Shown here piece by piece: positions 8,853-43,880 of a stretch of DNA of 64,000 nucleotides. The notes under the pieces were generated by a model. It worked only from the letters and a program-made list of their open reading frames with translations, searched no databases and had not been told where the DNA came from. Each line of letters opens with the position of its first letter. Positions within the stretch are counted from its first letter, which is position 1. Both the position numbers and the translations under genes were made by a program. Origin of the DNA: Kribbella solani (GTDB lineage: Bacteria; Actinomycetota; Actinomycetes; Propionibacteriales; Kribbellaceae); contig NZ_JACHNF010000001.1 of assembly GCF_014205295.1 (NCBI RefSeq), positions 5,704,001 to 5,768,000 of the forward strand. The letters are read 5' to 3'.

Positions 8853-9504
8853 GCGTTGCTCCCCGAATCCATCGCTGCGGTGGCCGGCGCAGACCGGGAA
8901 AGCTCCCGTCCGGCGCGACCGTTCGACCCGATACCGTGCGGCTGTTGAGTCGGCGTGCTGTTCGGCTCAGCGCGGTAGCTACCGCCGTTCCTGGTATCCG
9001 CCTTGTCCACACGGTTGTCCACAGTTGTGAACGACCGCCGGAGCAGGTTGGTTACCGATCGCGGGGTGTGGGACCTCTGGTGTGAAGGAGTGACGCTAAC
9101 AAGTCCGCCCAGCCACCTTCAAGCCGTCATCCACAGGCTATGAACACCAAATTGGGGGCAACCTGCGGCGTGTCGGGTGGACGGCGGAGCGTAGTCATGG
9201 TTGGAAATCGCTCTCGGTGCCCGATCTGAGCCGGAGCGTACGGGGTGGGTGGCGGGCGTCGTCGGCAACCGGCTGTCCACTAGACTGTCCACAAGCCTGT
9301 GGAAAACTCTGGGGATACCTGGTTTGACCTGTCCACAGCAGGCCACCTATCGTGGATCGGTCGGTGTTGAGCCGGCCCTTTCGTGCTGCGCTCCCTGCGG
9401 GACCTTACTGGTTCTCCGACGGTGTGCAGGACTGCACCACCGGGCAGATCCTAATCAGTGGATTTGTCGACAATTTGTGATCTCGAGTAACCGGAGTCAT
9501 TCCA
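8853..9504. promoter_or_regulatory. dnaA-rpmH intergenic region with DnaA boxes
   Basis: A 652-base gap between divergent dnaA and rpmH. Perfect actinomycete DnaA boxes TTGTCCACA lie at 9003-9011 and 9015-9023, in the same direction 12 bases apart. Further boxes are TCATCCACA 9127-9135, CTGTCCACT 9273-9281, CTGTCCACA 9285-9293 (again 12 bases apart), TTTTCCACA on the minus strand at 9298-9306 and CTGTCCACA 9329-9337. It must hold the dnaA and rpmH promoters. The boxes suggest DnaA autoregulation, part of the origin, or both. A TTGTCGACAA palindrome lies at 9464-9473. Confidence 0.75.
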
Positions 9505-12174: not shown

Positions 12175-12846
12175 ATGAACGAGGACGTTTCACGTGAAAC
12201 ACCGCCGCTCGTGGAGAAGCTGTTTCCACGGGCGGCGGTCCGGCTTTCGGCGTACGCCGAACTGCTCGCCACCGAAGGCACTCTGCGTGGGCTGATCGGT
12301 CCGCGAGAGGTGCCGCGGCTCTGGGACCGTCATCTGCTGAACTGCGCGGTCGTCGAACGACTGGTTCCGGAAGACGCGTCGGTCGCCGATGTCGGTACGG
12401 GCGCCGGACTGCCTGGGATCGTGCTCGCGATCGTCCGGCCTGATCTCCAGGTGTCGCTGGTCGAGCCGTTGCTCCGGCGGACCACCTTCCTTCAGGAAGC
12501 AGTCGACGTACTGGAGCTGGACAACGCGACGGTCGTCCGGGCCCGAGCGGAGGATCTTCCGCCGGCGTCGTACGACGTGGTGACTTCCCGCGCGGTCGCT
12601 CCATTGGGCAAACTGGCGCGATGGTGCCTGCCGCTCTGTGTCGAGGGTGGACTGATGCTGGCGATGAAGGGGTCGTCCGCGGAGGAGGAAGTGGACGCCT
12701 CGGAACGTGAATTGACCAAGCTCGGAGCAGAGCTTTGGCATATTCATCAACTCGGCGGCGAGGAACTGGCCCAGCCCACGACTGTGGTGAGTATTGTGGC
12801 CGGACGTGCTGCAGGGGGATCCCGGCACGGAAGACGCGGGAGGTGA
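12175..12846 (+). CDS. rsmG: 16S rRNA (guanine-N7) methyltransferase RsmG
   Basis: A 223-residue SAM-dependent enzyme methylating G527 of 16S rRNA (E. coli numbering); its loss gives low-level streptomycin resistance in several bacteria. The SAM loop [11 protein letters not shown] is at residues 70-80, and RAV and KGSS motifs follow. The fifth codon onward (VSRET) is written by a parS site at 12187-12200, so the start of this gene doubles as a centromere element. The stop lies at the proposed parA start. Confidence 0.96.
12187..12200. other. parS site 1 (in rsmG)
   Basis: The perfect 14-bp palindrome GTTTCACGTGAAAC is the core of the bacterial parS consensus bound by ParB. It lies within codons 5-9 of rsmG. 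Confidence 0.95.
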
Positions 12847-12854
12847 GCGGGTTG

Positions 12855-14294
12855 GTGAGTCGTGCCCTCGGATGGCCCGAGAAGAGCACCGGTGAGCCGA
12901 GGTCGGAACCAGGCATCGGCTGGCCGACCGAACCGGACGCCGCGGTTCGCGTGGTCACCCAGGACGCGACTCCCAACCCGACCCCAGCCCAGAACACCTC
13001 AGCTGTCGTTCCGGTCCCGCCGATCGACACTTCGGGGCTTCGTGCTGCCGCCGCTGCCGGCCTGGACGGTCCGGCCGTGGTCGACCCGAGCGCCGTTTCA
13101 CGTGAAACAGCGGCCGCCGTTTCACGTGAAACACCCTCGATGCGGGATGATGGTTCCGAGTCCGATTCGGCACCTCTGGTGGACGCCGAGCCGGACTTCT
13201 CCGAGTCTCCACCGCCTGTGGATGACCACCGCATGAAACTGCCGGTTTACCCGGGAATTCATCCACAGAAGCCTGTGGACGGAGCTGGGGGCAGACCCGC
13301 TCCGACCCCTACAGACATCCTCTTCGGGCCAAGTCCCGCACCTATTGGAATGGGCGCTATGACTGCCGCACAGATCGCCGCGCGGGCTACGTCGGACGAG
13401 CTTCAGCGACGACTCCTTGAGACTCCGATCGCCGCCGCGACCGAACGGACCCTGCTGGTGAATGAAGGACGCACGATGGGCCGGGAGTTCCCGCTGCCCG
13501 ACCAGACTCGAGTCTTCGTCGTCGCGAACCAGAAGGGTGGCGTCGGCAAGACCACCACGACGGTCAACGTCGCCGCCGGACTCGCGCTGTACGGCGCCAG
13601 GATCCTCGTGATCGACCTCGATCCGCAGGGAAACGCGTCGACGGCCCTGGGCATCGACCACGCCGAAGGCACGCCGGGTGTGTACGAGGCCGTGATCGAG
13701 GGCGAGCCGCTGAGTAAGCTGATCCAGCCCTGTGCCGAGCATCCCGGGATTCAGGTGATCCCGGCGACGATCGACCTGGCCGGCGCCGAGATCGAGCTGG
13801 TCAGTCTGGTGGCCCGCGAGAGCCGGCTGAAGAGCGTGCTCGAGGCCTACCTGTCCGAGACTGAAGCCGCGGGGGAGAAGTACGACTACGTCTTCATCGA
13901 CTGCCCGCCATCGCTCGGCCTGCTGACCGTGAACGCGCTGACCGCCGCGCGCGAGGTGCTGGTCCCGATCCAGAGCGAGTACTACGCGCTGGAGGGTCTG
14001 TCCCAGCTGCTCCGCCACATCGACATGGTGAAGTCGCACCTGAACCCCGGGCTGGACGTCTCCACCATCCTGCTGACGATGTACGACGCCCGGACCAAGC
14101 TGGCCGGCGAGGTGGCGGCGGAGGTGCGCGGCCACTTCAAGGACGCGGTGCTCCGGACCGCGGTGCCGCGCTCGGTGCGGATCTCCGAGGCGCCGAGTCA
14201 CGGGCAGACCGTGCTGGCGTACGACCCCGCGTCGGCGGGCGCGCTGTCGTACCTGGAAGCGTCCCGCGAGATCGCGATGCGGAACAACGCCTGA
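12855..14294 (+). CDS. parA: Chromosome partitioning ATPase ParA (Soj)
   Basis: A ParA/MinD-type ATPase of about 479 residues. The deviant Walker A motif [10 protein letters not shown] is near residues 227-236, the DLDPQGNAS switch follows, and the Walker B segment [12 protein letters not shown] lies about 125 residues on. The first 200 residues are a Pro/Ala/Asp-rich disordered extension, longer than usual. The start is uncertain: GTG 12843 (overlapping the rsmG stop), TTG 12852 and GTG 12855 all sit near a GGGAGG site. Two parS sites lie inside the extension. ParA drives origin segregation with ParB. Confidence 0.93.
13095..13108. other. parS site 2 (in parA)
   Basis: Perfect GTTTCACGTGAAAC, in frame as VSRET within the disordered ParA N-terminus. 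The next copy starts 24 bases later. Confidence 0.95.
13119..13132. other. parS site 3 (in parA)
   Basis: Perfect GTTTCACGTGAAAC, 24 bases (eight codons) after site 2 and in the same frame, giving a second VSRET in ParA. Confidence 0.95.
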
Positions 14295-14316
14295 TCTGTC
14301 GGTTCGGTATGGCACC

Positions 14317-14330
14317 GTTTCACGTGAAAC
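14317..14330. other. parS site 4 (parA-parB gap)
   Basis: Perfect GTTTCACGTGAAAC in the 85-base gap between parA and parB. Confidence 0.95.
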
Positions 14331-14379
14331 GTGGCAGCGCAGCAGTAGTTCAGCAGGTTGTCGATCTCGAGGGAGCGCG

Positions 14380-15387
14380 ATGAACACCCGACTCGGACGC
14401 GGACTTGGTGCGCTGATCCCCAGCTCGCCGACGCCCACCACCCTCGGCAGCAAGTCGAGCTCCATCCCTGGCGCACCGCCGGTGGCCAAGCCGGCCGACG
14501 CCGACGCGGGGGACGCGAGCACGCCAGGCACGCCAGGTACGGCCGTGTCGAGTGGACCGGAGTTGGCGGTTGTCCCGGGAGCCTCGTTCGCGGAGATCGA
14601 CGTCGAGAAGATCACCCCGAACCCGAAGCAGCCGCGGACGGTCTTCGACGAGGATGCGATGGACGAGCTCGTCCACTCGGTCAAGGAGATCGGTCTGCTG
14701 CAGCCGATCGTCGTTCGGCGGCTCGACGACGGCAAGTACGAGCTGGTGATGGGTGAGCGGCGCTGGCGGGCGACGCAGGCGGCCGGTCTGACCACCATCC
14801 CAGCGATCGTCCGGGAGACCTCGGACGACGACATGCTCCGCGACGCGCTGCTGGAGAACCTGCACCGCAGTCAGCTGAACCCGCTCGAAGAGGCGGCCGC
14901 GTACCAGCAGATGCTCGACGACTTCGGCTGTACGCAGGAAGTGCTCGCGACCCGGATCGGGCGTTCGCGTCCGCAGATCTCCAACACGCTGCGGCTGCTG
15001 AAGTTGCCGGCATCGGTGCAGCGGCGAGTTGCGGCCGGCGTACTGTCGGCGGGTCACGCCCGTGCCCTGCTCGGACTGCCGAGTGGCGATGCGATCGAGC
15101 GGCTGGCGCAGCGGATCGTTGCCGAGGGCATGTCGGTGCGTACGGTCGAGGAGATCGTTGCGCTCGGCGACATGAACACCGACGACGCGCCGGTGGCGCG
15201 GAAGCGGAACAAGCCGGTCGCGCCGCGACTGGTCGATCTGGCCGATCGGCTCTCGGATCGCTTCGAGACTCGGGTGAAGGTCGACCTCGGCAAGACCAAG
15301 GGAAAGATCACCGTCGAGTTCGCGTCGATCGACGACCTGGAGCGAATCGTCACCCTGATGGACCCGAATCGGGTCTCCGGCGACTGA
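14380..15387 (+). CDS. parB: Chromosome partitioning protein ParB (Spo0J), CTPase
   Basis: A 335-residue DNA clamp that binds parS and spreads using CTP. It starts with the ParA-contacting basic stretch [14 protein letters not shown]. The CTP-binding GERRWR motif is at residues 125-130 and ENLHR at 159-163. A helix-turn-helix ([20 protein letters not shown]) and a C-terminal dimerisation domain follow. A GGGAG site lies four bases before the ATG. It is co-directional with parA, with parS between and on both sides. Confidence 0.97.
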
Positions 15388-15507
15388 AAATCCGATCCAA
15401 CGGTGAGTCCGCGAACTCGCTGAGGATCGCGCTCACAGAGCTAGTTCGAAGTACGAAGTATGCGATTCATACCCAGAGGGATTTGTCGACAAAACCACTT
15501 AGAAACT

Positions 15508-15545
15508 AATGGGGTCACCGTTTCACGTGAAACGGTGACCCCATT
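15508..15545. other. parS site 5 in a perfect 38-bp palindrome
   Basis: The core GTTTCACGTGAAAC is at 15520-15533. It is extended on both sides by exact inverted arms (AATGGGGTCACC and its complement), so the whole of 15508-15545 is a perfect palindrome. It lies between the convergent ends of parB and the DUF3817 gene, where an intrinsic terminator would be expected. It may serve both as parS and as a hairpin; no T-run follows on the plus strand. Confidence 0.9.
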
Positions 15546-40625: not shown

Positions 40626-41404
40626 GCCGGGTTCTCGTCACCGGTGCCGCGAGCGGGCTCGGCGCCGCGCTGGTCGCCAGGTTTGTTGCTGACGGCCACC
40701 AAGTGCTCGGTACGGACGTCGCCGAAGGCACCGTGGACCGGAGGCTCGACGTACGAAGTGCCGATGACTGGGATGCCGCGGTCGAGTGGTGTAAGCAGAA
40801 CTGGGGCGGCCTGGACATCCTGGTGAACAACGCCGGGATCGCGACCGGTGGCCGGATCGACGTCGAGACGCTGGACGAGTGGAATCGGGTCGTCGACATC
40901 AACCTGATGGGTGTGGTTCGCGGGTGCCGCGCGTTCACGCCGATGTTCAAGCGCCAGCGTTCCGGTTACATCGTCAACACCGCGTCCGCGGCCGGGCTGA
41001 TCCATCCGCCGATGATGAGCTCGTACAACACGGTGAAGGCCGGTGTGGTCGCGCTGTCGGAGACGCTGTCACACGAGCTGCGCCCGTACGGCGTGACCGT
41101 GTCCGTGCTCTGTCCGTCGTTCTTCCGGACGAATCTCGCCGACTCGATCCGCGGCGCGGACACCACGATGGGGACGGCCGCGCGGCAGCTGATCGAGACG
41201 TCGCCACGGACCGCCGACGACATCGCGACCGCGGTGCTGGCGGGGATCGCGAAGAAGCGGTTCCTGATCATCCCGGACCGGCCGGCCCGGGTGGCGTGGC
41301 TGTCGAAGCGCTACGCCCGCCCGCTGTACAACCGTCAGATGTACAAGATCGCGGCCCGCGCCCACATTCGCGCCGAACGGGAAGAGCGGTCGGACCGGCA
41401 GTGA
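40622..41404 (+). CDS. Short-chain dehydrogenase/reductase
   Basis: A 260-residue SDR with the cofactor motif TGAASGLGAA, NNAGIA, and catalytic Ser (NTASAAG) and YNTVK (Tyr-x3-Lys). It starts with a GTG overlapping the dehydrogenase stop (GTGA) and ends in a GTGA overlap with the kinase-like gene. It may interconvert a hydroxy/keto acyl-CoA in this pathway (inference). Confidence 0.9.
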   Translation: MSRVLVTGAASGLGAALVARFVADGHQVLGTDVAEGTVDRRLDVRSADDWDAAVEWCKQNWGGLDILVNNAGIATGGRIDVETLDEWNRVVDINLMGVVRGCRAFTPMFKRQRSGYIVNTASAAGLIHPPMMSSYNTVKAGVVALSETLSHELRPYGVTVSVLCPSFFRTNLADSIRGADTTMGTAARQLIETSPRTADDIATAVLAGIAKKRFLIIPDRPARVAWLSKRYARPLYNRQMYKIAARAHIRAEREERSDRQ

Positions 41405-42459
41405 CGGGAGCACCGGACGGCGCCCGGCCGGTACGGGCCGAGGACGCTTTCGACGTGGCCGCGATGGATGCCTGGCTGCGGTCCCGGACCGAGTTGCCGG
41501 ACGGTCTGCCGGAGGTCAGGCAGTTCACCAGCGGCGCGTCGAACCTGACCTATCTGTTGGCGTACCCCGATCGCGACCTGATCCTGCGCCGCCCGCCCAG
41601 CGGCACGAAGGCGAAGAGCGCCCACGACATGGGCCGCGAGTACCGGATTCAGGCAGGCCTCAAACCCGTCTTCCGCTACGTCCCCGAAATGGTTGCTCAT
41701 TGCAACGATGAGACGGTGATCGGCTCCGAGTTCTACCTGATGGAGCGCGTCGCCGGCACCATCCCCGGGCACCGCGCGCTCGGCGTCGACCTGACCGCTG
41801 CCCAAACCCGGCAGCTCGGCTTCACGCTGATCGACACCCTCGCCGAGTTGCACGCCGTCGATCCCGCCGCGGCCGGCCTGTCCGACCTCGGTCGCGGCGC
41901 CGGGTACGTGGGCCGTCAACTCACCGGCTGGTCCGACCGGTACCGCAAGGCAAAGACCTGGAACGTACCCAGCTACCACAAGGTCATCAGCTGGCTTGTG
42001 GATAACCAACCGAATGACGTCCGGACCTGCGTTATCCACAACGACTTCCGGCTCGACAACGTCGTGCTCAGGCCGGACGATCCGCTCCGCGTGGTCGGCG
42101 TCCTCGACTGGGAACTCGCCACTCTCGGCGATCCGTTGATGGATCTCGGCAGCGCACTGGCGTACTGGGTGCAGGCCGATGACGACTGGGCGTTTCGCCG
42201 GTTCAAACTGCAGCCGTCGGACGTACCCGGCATGCTGACGCGCGACGAGATCGTGCGGTACTACACGGAACGCTCCGGCCTCGAACCGGTGAACTGGGCG
42301 TTCTACGAGGTATTCGGGCTGTTCCGGCTGGCGGTGATCGCGCAGCAGATCTACTACCGCTATCACCACAAGCAGACGCGGAACCCGCGCTTCAAGAACT
42401 TCTGGCTGCCGGTGAACGTACTCGAGCGGCGCTGCCGCAGGATCATCCGGCAGGCTTAG
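41401..42459 (+). CDS. APH-like phosphotransferase (ACAD10/11 kinase domain or LvaA-like)
   Basis: A 352-residue aminoglycoside-phosphotransferase-fold protein. The catalytic segment IHNDFRLDN and metal site DWELATLGDPLMDLG are intact, as is LILRRPPSG with the early Arg/Lys region. In animals this domain is fused to an acyl-CoA dehydrogenase (ACAD10/11); in Pseudomonas LvaA it phosphorylates a 4-hydroxyacyl-CoA. Antibiotic modification is unlikely given the context. Start is GTG 41401, overlapping the SDR stop. Two DnaA boxes lie inside. Confidence 0.88.
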   Translation: MTGAPDGARPVRAEDAFDVAAMDAWLRSRTELPDGLPEVRQFTSGASNLTYLLAYPDRDLILRRPPSGTKAKSAHDMGREYRIQAGLKPVFRYVPEMVAHCNDETVIGSEFYLMERVAGTIPGHRALGVDLTAAQTRQLGFTLIDTLAELHAVDPAAAGLSDLGRGAGYVGRQLTGWSDRYRKAKTWNVPSYHKVISWLVDNQPNDVRTCVIHNDFRLDNVVLRPDDPLRVVGVLDWELATLGDPLMDLGSALAYWVQADDDWAFRRFKLQPSDVPGMLTRDEIVRYYTERSGLEPVNWAFYEVFGLFRLAVIAQQIYYRYHHKQTRNPRFKNFWLPVNVLERRCRRIIRQA

Positions 42460-43311
42460 GTGGCTGCCATCTATCTGGTCCGGCACGCGCAGGCTTCGTT
42501 CGGCGCGCGCGACTACGACAAGCTGTCCGCGTTGGGGGAGCAGCAGGCGGCTCGGCTCGGGCAGACCTTGGCCGAGGTGCAGCCGGCGCTGGTGGTTTCC
42601 GGTTCGATGCGCAGGCATCAGCAGACCGCGACGTTGGCCGGCTTCACCGCGGAGGTGGACGCGGGGTACGACGAGTTCGATCACCAGGAAGTGATCGTCG
42701 CGCACAAACCCGCGTACCGGAATCATGCAGTGATGGTCGCCGAGCTGGCCCGGACCGGTCATCCACAGCGGGCGTTCCAGACCATGTTCACGGCGGCGAC
42801 GGACCGCTGGATGTCGGGCGCGGACGGCTACAGCGAGACCTTCGAGGCGTTCTGCGAGCGGTCCGGCGCGGCGGTTCGGCGTACTGCCGAGCGCCTCGGG
42901 AAGGGGGAGTCCGCCGTGGTGTTCACGTCCGGCGGGCCGATCGCGGCGGTGGTGAGCAGGCTGCTGTCCGGCGGTGACGGACTGTGGCCGAAGCTGAACC
43001 CGGTGACGATCAACACCGCGATCACCAAAGTCGTGTCCGGTCGCGGCGGGCTGACTGTGGTGAGCTACAACGAGCACGTACACCTCGGCACCGAGCTGCT
43101 CTCGTACCGGTAGCTCTTGCACAGAATAGGACTCCGATGCGACGGAACATCCTGATCACCGGCGCCAGTTCCGGGCTCGGTGCGGAGATGGCCCGGCAGT
43201 TCGCCGCGAAGGGCCATGACCTGGCGCTGACCGCGCGCCGTACCGAGCGCCTGGAAGCGTTGCGGGCCGAGCTGGCCGGAAGTTATCCACAGGCCAAGGT
43301 GGTTATCCACA
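41997..43311. other. DnaA-box cluster inside the catabolic operon
   Basis: Perfect TTATCCACA boxes lie at 41997-42005 (minus), 42032-42040, 43283-43291 and 43303-43311 (plus), with a one-mismatch copy TCATCCACA at 42759-42767. All are within coding sequence, about 33-38 kb from the putative origin. The first pair is 35 bases apart start to start, the last pair 20. Confidence 0.7.
42460..43113 (+). CDS. Histidine phosphatase family protein
   Basis: A 217-residue phosphoglycerate-mutase-like phosphatase with the RHG-type motif LVRHAQASF (R8, H9). The second His region is in the central part (VVFTSGGPIAAVV has Ser-Gly-Gly where many members have His-Gly, so this motif is altered). The GTG start directly follows the kinase-like gene's stop. 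It might hydrolyse a phosphorylated intermediate of the pathway (inference). Confidence 0.82.
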   Translation: MAAIYLVRHAQASFGARDYDKLSALGEQQAARLGQTLAEVQPALVVSGSMRRHQQTATLAGFTAEVDAGYDEFDHQEVIVAHKPAYRNHAVMVAELARTGHPQRAFQTMFTAATDRWMSGADGYSETFEAFCERSGAAVRRTAERLGKGESAVVFTSGGPIAAVVSRLLSGGDGLWPKLNPVTINTAITKVVSGRGGLTVVSYNEHVHLGTELLSYR

Positions 43312-43880
43312 CGCTGGATGTGAATGACCACGAGCAGGTCTTCGAGGTGTTCCGGGCGATCGACGCCGAACTGCCGCTGGATCGAGTCGTGGTGAACGCC
43401 GGTCTCGGCAAGGGCGCCCCGCTCGGTACCGGCCGCTTCGACGCGAACCGGGACACCGCGCTGACCAACTTCGTCGGCTCGCTCGCCCAGGCCGAGGCGG
43501 CGATGGAGCTCTTCCGGGCGCGGAACGCCGGCCATCTCGTCCTCATCTCGTCGATCTCCGGGTTGCGCGGTCTGCCGAAGACGGTCACCACGTACGCGGC
43601 GACCAAGGCCGGCCTCGCCGCGCTCGGCGAAGGGCTCCGAATGGAGCTGCTCGGGAAGCCGATCAAGGTGAGCACGATCTACCCCGGTTACATCCGGTCC
43701 GAGATGAACGAGAAGGTCGCGAACACGCCGCTGATCGTCGGCACCGAGCCCGGAGTACGCGCGATCGTCGCCGCGATCGAGGCGGAGAAGGCGAAGGCGT
43801 ACGTGCCCCGGTGGCCGTGGGCGCCGATCGCGCGGGTGATGCGGTTCGCGCCGCTGCCGGTGCTGAGGAGGATGATCTGA
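43137..43880 (+). CDS. Short-chain dehydrogenase/reductase (second)
   Basis: A 247-residue SDR with TGASSGLGAE at the N-terminus, VVNAGLG, SSISG and the catalytic YAATK. The hydrophobic C-terminus (WPWAPIARVMRFAPLPVL) suggests membrane association. It begins 23 bases after the phosphatase gene and ends overlapping the next start (TGATG). Two perfect DnaA boxes lie at 43283-43291 and 43303-43311 in its coding sequence, using codons rare for this genome. Confidence 0.9.
   Translation: MRRNILITGASSGLGAEMARQFAAKGHDLALTARRTERLEALRAELAGSYPQAKVVIHTLDVNDHEQVFEVFRAIDAELPLDRVVVNAGLGKGAPLGTGRFDANRDTALTNFVGSLAQAEAAMELFRARNAGHLVLISSISGLRGLPKTVTTYAATKAGLAALGEGLRMELLGKPIKVSTIYPGYIRSEMNEKVANTPLIVGTEPGVRAIVAAIEAEKAKAYVPRWPWAPIARVMRFAPLPVLRRMI

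Follow-up and report, generated by a model that had tools for sequence, protein, structure and literature searches.

A tandem pair of DnaA boxes (TTATCCACA) located inside a short-chain dehydrogenase (SDR) gene of Kribbella solani appears to be maintained for its DNA sequence, the codon comparisons supporting DNA-level selection on at least this pair (boxes 43283 and 43303) in one Kribbella clade. Together with two further exact copies in a nearby gene, these boxes are predicted high-affinity DnaA sites and probably members of a titration field centred on the origin of replication (oriC); that DnaA binds them is what we infer from their sequence. The locus is real, is beyond chance and is partly under selection at the DNA level. 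It represents a known kind of arrangement, and is unusual in being placed inside coding sequence and in the steep gradient that surrounds it.

DnaA boxes within a run of co-directional genes

The DNA analysed, referred to here as the window, is the 64-kb stretch between positions 5,704,001 and 5,768,000 of the 7.8-Mb Kribbella chromosome, and the features discussed are collected in Table 1. Among named organisms, the nearest relatives of a box-carrying gene come from species of Kribbella. A search for TTATCCACA in the window revealed four exact copies and none besides, each at the position and on the strand claimed for it in the initial annotation. Their location inside coding sequence was equally confirmed, with two boxes around 60% into a gene for an APH-family phosphotransferase and two some 150 bp from the start of the SDR gene; both genes form, with the histidine phosphatase gene between them, a run of co-directional genes. 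The APH-family protein is 75-89% identical across Kribbella. The boxes of the SDR gene share the same orientation at a spacing of 20 bp, about two helical turns, and the distance from the boxes to the dnaA-rpmH oriC is 33.0-34.3 kb.

Table 1. Positions of the features discussed, numbered within the window unless a genome position is given
Feature	Position	Strand	Details
DnaA box TTATCCACA, exact	41997..42005	-	in APH-family gene
DnaA box TTATCCACA, exact	42032..42040	+	over catalytic VIHND loop codons of APH-family gene
TCATCCACA, one mismatch	42759..42767	+	in histidine phosphatase gene
DnaA box TTATCCACA, exact	43283..43291	+	tandem pair member 1, SDR gene; codons ..T TAT CCA CA.
DnaA box TTATCCACA, exact	43303..43311	+	tandem pair member 2, SDR gene; codons.TT ATC CAC A..
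APH-family phosphotransferase	41401-42459	+	352 aa; Pfam PF01636, E 9.5e-52
Histidine phosphatase	42460-43113	+	217 aa; Pfam PF00300
Short-chain dehydrogenase (SDR)	43137-43880	+	247 aa; Pfam PF00106, E 2.2e-37
dnaA	4578..8852	-	1424 aa; C-terminal AAA+ and DNA-binding domains; Pfam PF00308, PF08299
Two TTGTCCACA boxes	9003..9023 (starts 9003, 9015)	+	dnaA-rpmH intergenic region
crgA-linked cluster region	L038:5100-5270 = genome C1:5645100-5645270

Fewer than 0.1 copies had been estimated to occur by chance per 64 kb, and dinucleotide shuffles of the window were in agreement, with 0.01 copies expected and 0/100 shuffles reaching four. When a high local box density was assumed in a simulation, the chance of four copies in 1315 bp was still about 0.001, for a length that was chosen post hoc, after the data had been seen. 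The one-mismatch copy described at 42759 is present too (TCATCCACA), but it was detected in 0/29 relatives and is probably incidental.

The codons used by the boxes had been described as rare in these genes. This was so for CTT (1.5% of Leu codons), GTT (7.5% of Val) and TAT (14% of Tyr), but not for GAT, which with 24% of Asp codons is not rare; the CCA codon (5.7% of Pro) is also disfavoured. Elsewhere in the APH gene, a disfavoured GTT valine codon at 41692-41694, outside any DnaA box, is invariant in 15/15 close species.

An origin-centred field of TTATCCACA

The dnaA-rpmH region, near position 9.0 kb of the window, was used as the oriC reference; the two TTGTCCACA boxes that it contains are mostly conserved among the relatives compared. 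Domain IV of the adjacent DnaA aligns with the solved DnaA chains 3pvp and 1j1v and retains the GRDHTTV DNA-binding motif. The protein also carries several hundred glutamine-rich residues N-terminal of the AAA+ domain, and across six Kribbella genomes the stop-to-stop open frame of dnaA varies between 637 and 1462 codons. In one relative (G028, C1:4390796-4391822) the dnaA match is split in two frames within the DNA-binding domain, which suggests a frameshift or an assembly error.

In the whole genome, TTATCCACA was found 62 times compared to 4 for the reversed pattern, and TTGTCCACA 100 times compared to 21. Within 300 kb of oriC there were 27 of the 60 copies of TTATCCACA on the main contig, where 4.6 were expected (P about 6e-15). 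To either side of oriC the density drops as the distance grows, being 65/Mb at less than 100 kb and about 4/Mb at more than 500 kb, whereas the near-origin excess of TTGTCCACA was weaker (23 vs. 7.7 expected). In the 520-kb origin region TTATCCACA is the top over-represented 9-mer (27 copies vs. 0.1 expected from a third-order Markov model). It also ranks first among its 1680 letter permutations, and a 260-kb region distant from the origin contains a single copy; therefore, an artefact of base composition is unlikely. An extended form of the site, roughly A-G-TTATCCACA-G, is common to seven Kribbella genomes. About half of the near-origin boxes appeared to be intergenic, although this split is approximate, being based on a rough gene call in which the APH gene went undetected and the SDR boxes were placed in an antisense frame.

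Other kinds of element were also considered. A dispersed repeat or a base-composition effect was ruled out, as the 1680 permutations average 0.29 copies against 27, and a polar motif of the Chi or KOPS kind was ruled out since copies on both strands are present to either side of oriC. The parS sites (GTTTCACGTGAAAC) are separate, at 12.2-15.5 kb, and were likewise discarded as an explanation; the five exact copies cluster beside oriC (12187-15533), near a parB-like gene (14380-15387). A search for structured RNA in two regions found none.

The scan of the whole genome that the initial annotation had proposed showed that close box pairs are concentrated in the vicinity of oriC rather than being spread throughout the genome. 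The suggestion of a replication-control site hidden in these genes is partly supported, in that the origin-centred field fits DnaA titration, but the locus is one member of this field and is not unique.

The same bias was detected in other genomes. In 19 Kribbella genomes, this one included, 24-73 copies of TTATCCACA were counted vs. 2-9 of the control, and in genome G034 17 vs. 4. With oriC positions computed from dnaA, an origin-centred excess within 300 kb was found in G004, G014, G016, G028 and G034 (P 4e-3 to 2e-7). Beyond the genus, three genomes of other actinomycete families (two from f22, one from f21) have 7-9 copies at less than 100 kb from dnaA, where 0.3-0.7 were expected, an excess more compact than that of Kribbella, and a weak excess near dnaA was detected in family f7. 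Thus, the phenomenon is general and not peculiar to Kribbella.

The individual positions are much less stable than the density. Among the boxes of the whole zone that could be aligned, 8/19 were identical in G016 and 7/17 in G014, compared to backgrounds of 33% and 31%, respectively, calculated from other 9-mers of equal G+C content. As these values are close to background, most box positions turn over; the excess of density is preserved despite this turnover, which would fit selection on how many sites lie near oriC.

Two other groups of boxes were noted. On the other side of oriC, 68 kb away, an intergenic cluster (genome 5,645,124-5,645,234) consists of two inverted TTATCCACA boxes 102 bp apart that flank TATCCCCAG, TGTGCACA and TTATCCCCA motifs; the label crgA for its neighbour is a probable reading of a small membrane protein. 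This layout is recognisable in 7/7 Kribbella genomes compared, two of which do not belong to the close clade; in G028 the second box is altered. Among 297 genomes of the class searched for the core of the cluster, this genome was the only one to contain it, so the core could not be used for finding wider homologues. A second pair embedded in coding sequence lies 153 kb from oriC (G000 C1:5866059 and 5866229, 170 bp apart). It is kept in 4/4 relatives compared, with one site as TTGTCCACC in one of them, and switches between the TTG and TTA Leu codons retain a DnaA box.

Conservation of the boxes and rival explanations

The conservation of the four boxes was followed in a codon alignment of 30 Kribbella loci, those of this genome and 29 relatives; the counts for the 15 close species include the K. 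solani genome under study. Box 43283 is TTATCCACA in 13/15 close species and TTGTCCACA in 2/15, box 43303 is TTATCCACA in 11/15, TTGTCCACA in 3/15 and CTATCCACA in 1/15, and box 42032 is exact in 11/15 and TTGTCCACA in one more. A DnaA box of either form is kept in 15/15, 14/15 and 12/15 of these species, respectively. Box 41997 belongs to this species alone, with 3-6 base differences in the 29 aligned relatives. Outside the close clade, box 42032 persists in exact form in L021 and L025, and the pair was found in L025 alone, where the two corresponding sites read TCATCCACA and TTGTCCACA. Retention in relatives, proposed beforehand as a check on the cluster, was seen for the pair in the 15 close species but did not extend to the deeper Kribbella, where the boxes are mostly missing though the proteins are conserved; such a loss had been named in the initial annotation as evidence against its proposal, and it was thus observed in part. 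Judged from the alignment, the presumed four-box cluster is a conserved pair plus a semi-conserved single box plus a species-specific box.

The changes within the pair are mostly from TTATCCACA to TTGTCCACA, even at an amino-acid cost (Tyr to Cys and Ile to Val), and these A-to-G changes still leave a recognised actinomycete DnaA box; TTGTCCACA is listed as a high-affinity DnaA box for Streptomyces and Mycobacterium (PMC4285127). Codon 48 of the SDR gene encodes Ser, His or Arg depending on the species, yet its third base, with which the box begins, is T throughout.

Third bases were compared on a tree of the 15 species built without the boxes (about 1.1 substitutions per site). Disfavoured A/T third bases were invariant in 4/5 cases in the boxes vs. 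2/21 outside (Fisher P 0.005), and all third bases taken together were unchanged in 8/9 vs. 177/590 (P 0.0005), in a small sample that excludes box 41997 and in tests run once the boxes were already known. When all nine columns were counted, the pair in the SDR gene was only moderately unusual, with 12.6% of the same-phase windows showing as few changes. For box 42032, only the third base of GTT is informative because the amino acids of the overlapped catalytic loop are fixed anyway.

These data bear on whether the boxes could be genuine DnaA sites that are neutral or weakly selected and are shared by the clade mainly through common descent, an explanation that we consider rather unlikely. It would agree with the positional conservation near background in the zone as a whole, with the novelty of box 41997 and with the absence of most boxes from the deeper clade, whereas the invariance of third bases at disfavoured A/T positions and the repeated replacement of TTATCCACA by TTGTCCACA over a 15-species tree of such depth argue against it.

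A role in transcription control, in which DnaA bound to the boxes would act as a repressor or roadblock of the operon and tie its metabolism to the replication cycle, seems clearly less plausible. DnaA is a known transcription factor (PMC4447404), and the intergenic half of the near-origin boxes obtained from the rough gene call would be compatible with such a function, but the boxes analysed here lie inside coding sequence and not at a promoter, and the same box excess is found around many unrelated genes.

It is very improbable that the pair constitutes an element of the datA/DARS type, acting together with a DNA-bending protein to change the nucleotide state of DnaA. Despite the presence of closely spaced conserved boxes near oriC, only two boxes are conserved and these are restricted to one clade, further conserved weak boxes were not found around the pair, and all four boxes are in coding sequence and not in non-coding DNA as in such elements. 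The crgA-linked intergenic cluster is better suited to this function and represents a better datA-like candidate than the 43283/43303 locus.

Finally, chance or protein and codon constraints alone, without any role in DnaA binding, are hardly credible as the origin of the boxes, for although the amino acids VIH and YPQ allow a box and a conserved catalytic loop contains one of the sites, 0.01 copies were expected in the window, the distribution is centred on the origin, disfavoured codons are retained and amino-acid changes preserve a DnaA box.

Proposed titration of DnaA and comparison with known systems

Under the preferred reading, in which the boxes belong to an origin-centred titration field, their position within tens of kilobases of oriC would cause them to be copied soon after initiation. 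This early copying would double the number of sites and free DnaA would drop, so a second start would be delayed. The spacing of the tandem pair would let two DnaA molecules bind to one face of the DNA. Selection would act mainly on the count of sites near oriC, with a few positions, those of the pair included, being held for long. More tentatively, selection on titration sites near oriC may be strong enough to leave its mark on protein-coding genes, where it would fix codons that are disfavoured and, in places, amino acids as well, with the count of sites kept while positions turn over; as the number would be maintained while positions come and go, dose and distance from oriC would outweigh single loci.

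Whether chromosomal titration of DnaA limits replication is a long-running question. DnaA-box clusters of Bacillus subtilis and Streptomyces coelicolor are reported to repress untimely initiation (review, PMC5742627). In Escherichia coli, boxes accumulate near oriC and titration has been argued (Olivi et al. 2025, PMC12371093), experimental support having been reported as recently as 2025 (PMC12371093). In Kribbella, the gradient of one exact motif is steep and simple, dozens of species have been sequenced, and for the boxes inside genes synonymous codons serve as an internal neutral control. Comparative genomics could thus be used to test what the titration model predicts about dose and distance, and removal of the conserved pair could leave the protein unchanged.

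The clusters of B. subtilis, as Okumura et al. (2012) are summarised in PMC5742627 and PMC4447404, are likewise outside but near oriC and are reported to repress untimely initiation; compared to what these summaries describe, the Kribbella boxes lie in coding sequence over 1.3 kb and are known here from sequence. S. coelicolor, also an actinomycete, has clusters outside oriC that limit initiation, according to the account of Smulczyk-Krawczyszyn et al. (2006) in PMC5742627, and two large genomes of one other family (G075 and G112) show TTATCCACA concentrated at less than 100 kb from dnaA. However, the high-affinity box of Streptomyces is TTGTCCACA (PMC4285127) whereas the strongest near-origin motif of Kribbella is TTATCCACA, and the coding-embedded pair of Kribbella is clade-specific.

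The Kribbella locus also resembles datA of E. coli, a group of DnaA boxes outside oriC that lowers active DnaA, but datA works with IHF and is non-coding (PMC5742627, PMC4585315), whereas no such architecture was found at the locus described here and all its boxes are coding. As in Kribbella, boxes are over-represented in the vicinity of oriC in E. coli (Olivi et al. 2025, PMC12371093). The E. coli boxes prefer the lagging strand (PMC12371093), whereas strand polarity is not apparent in Kribbella. Moreover, the excess of E. coli is modest, with a median Z of about 2.1 for about 900 boxes of a loose motif (PMC12371093), in contrast to that of Kribbella, which amounts to about 15-fold for one exact 9-mer.
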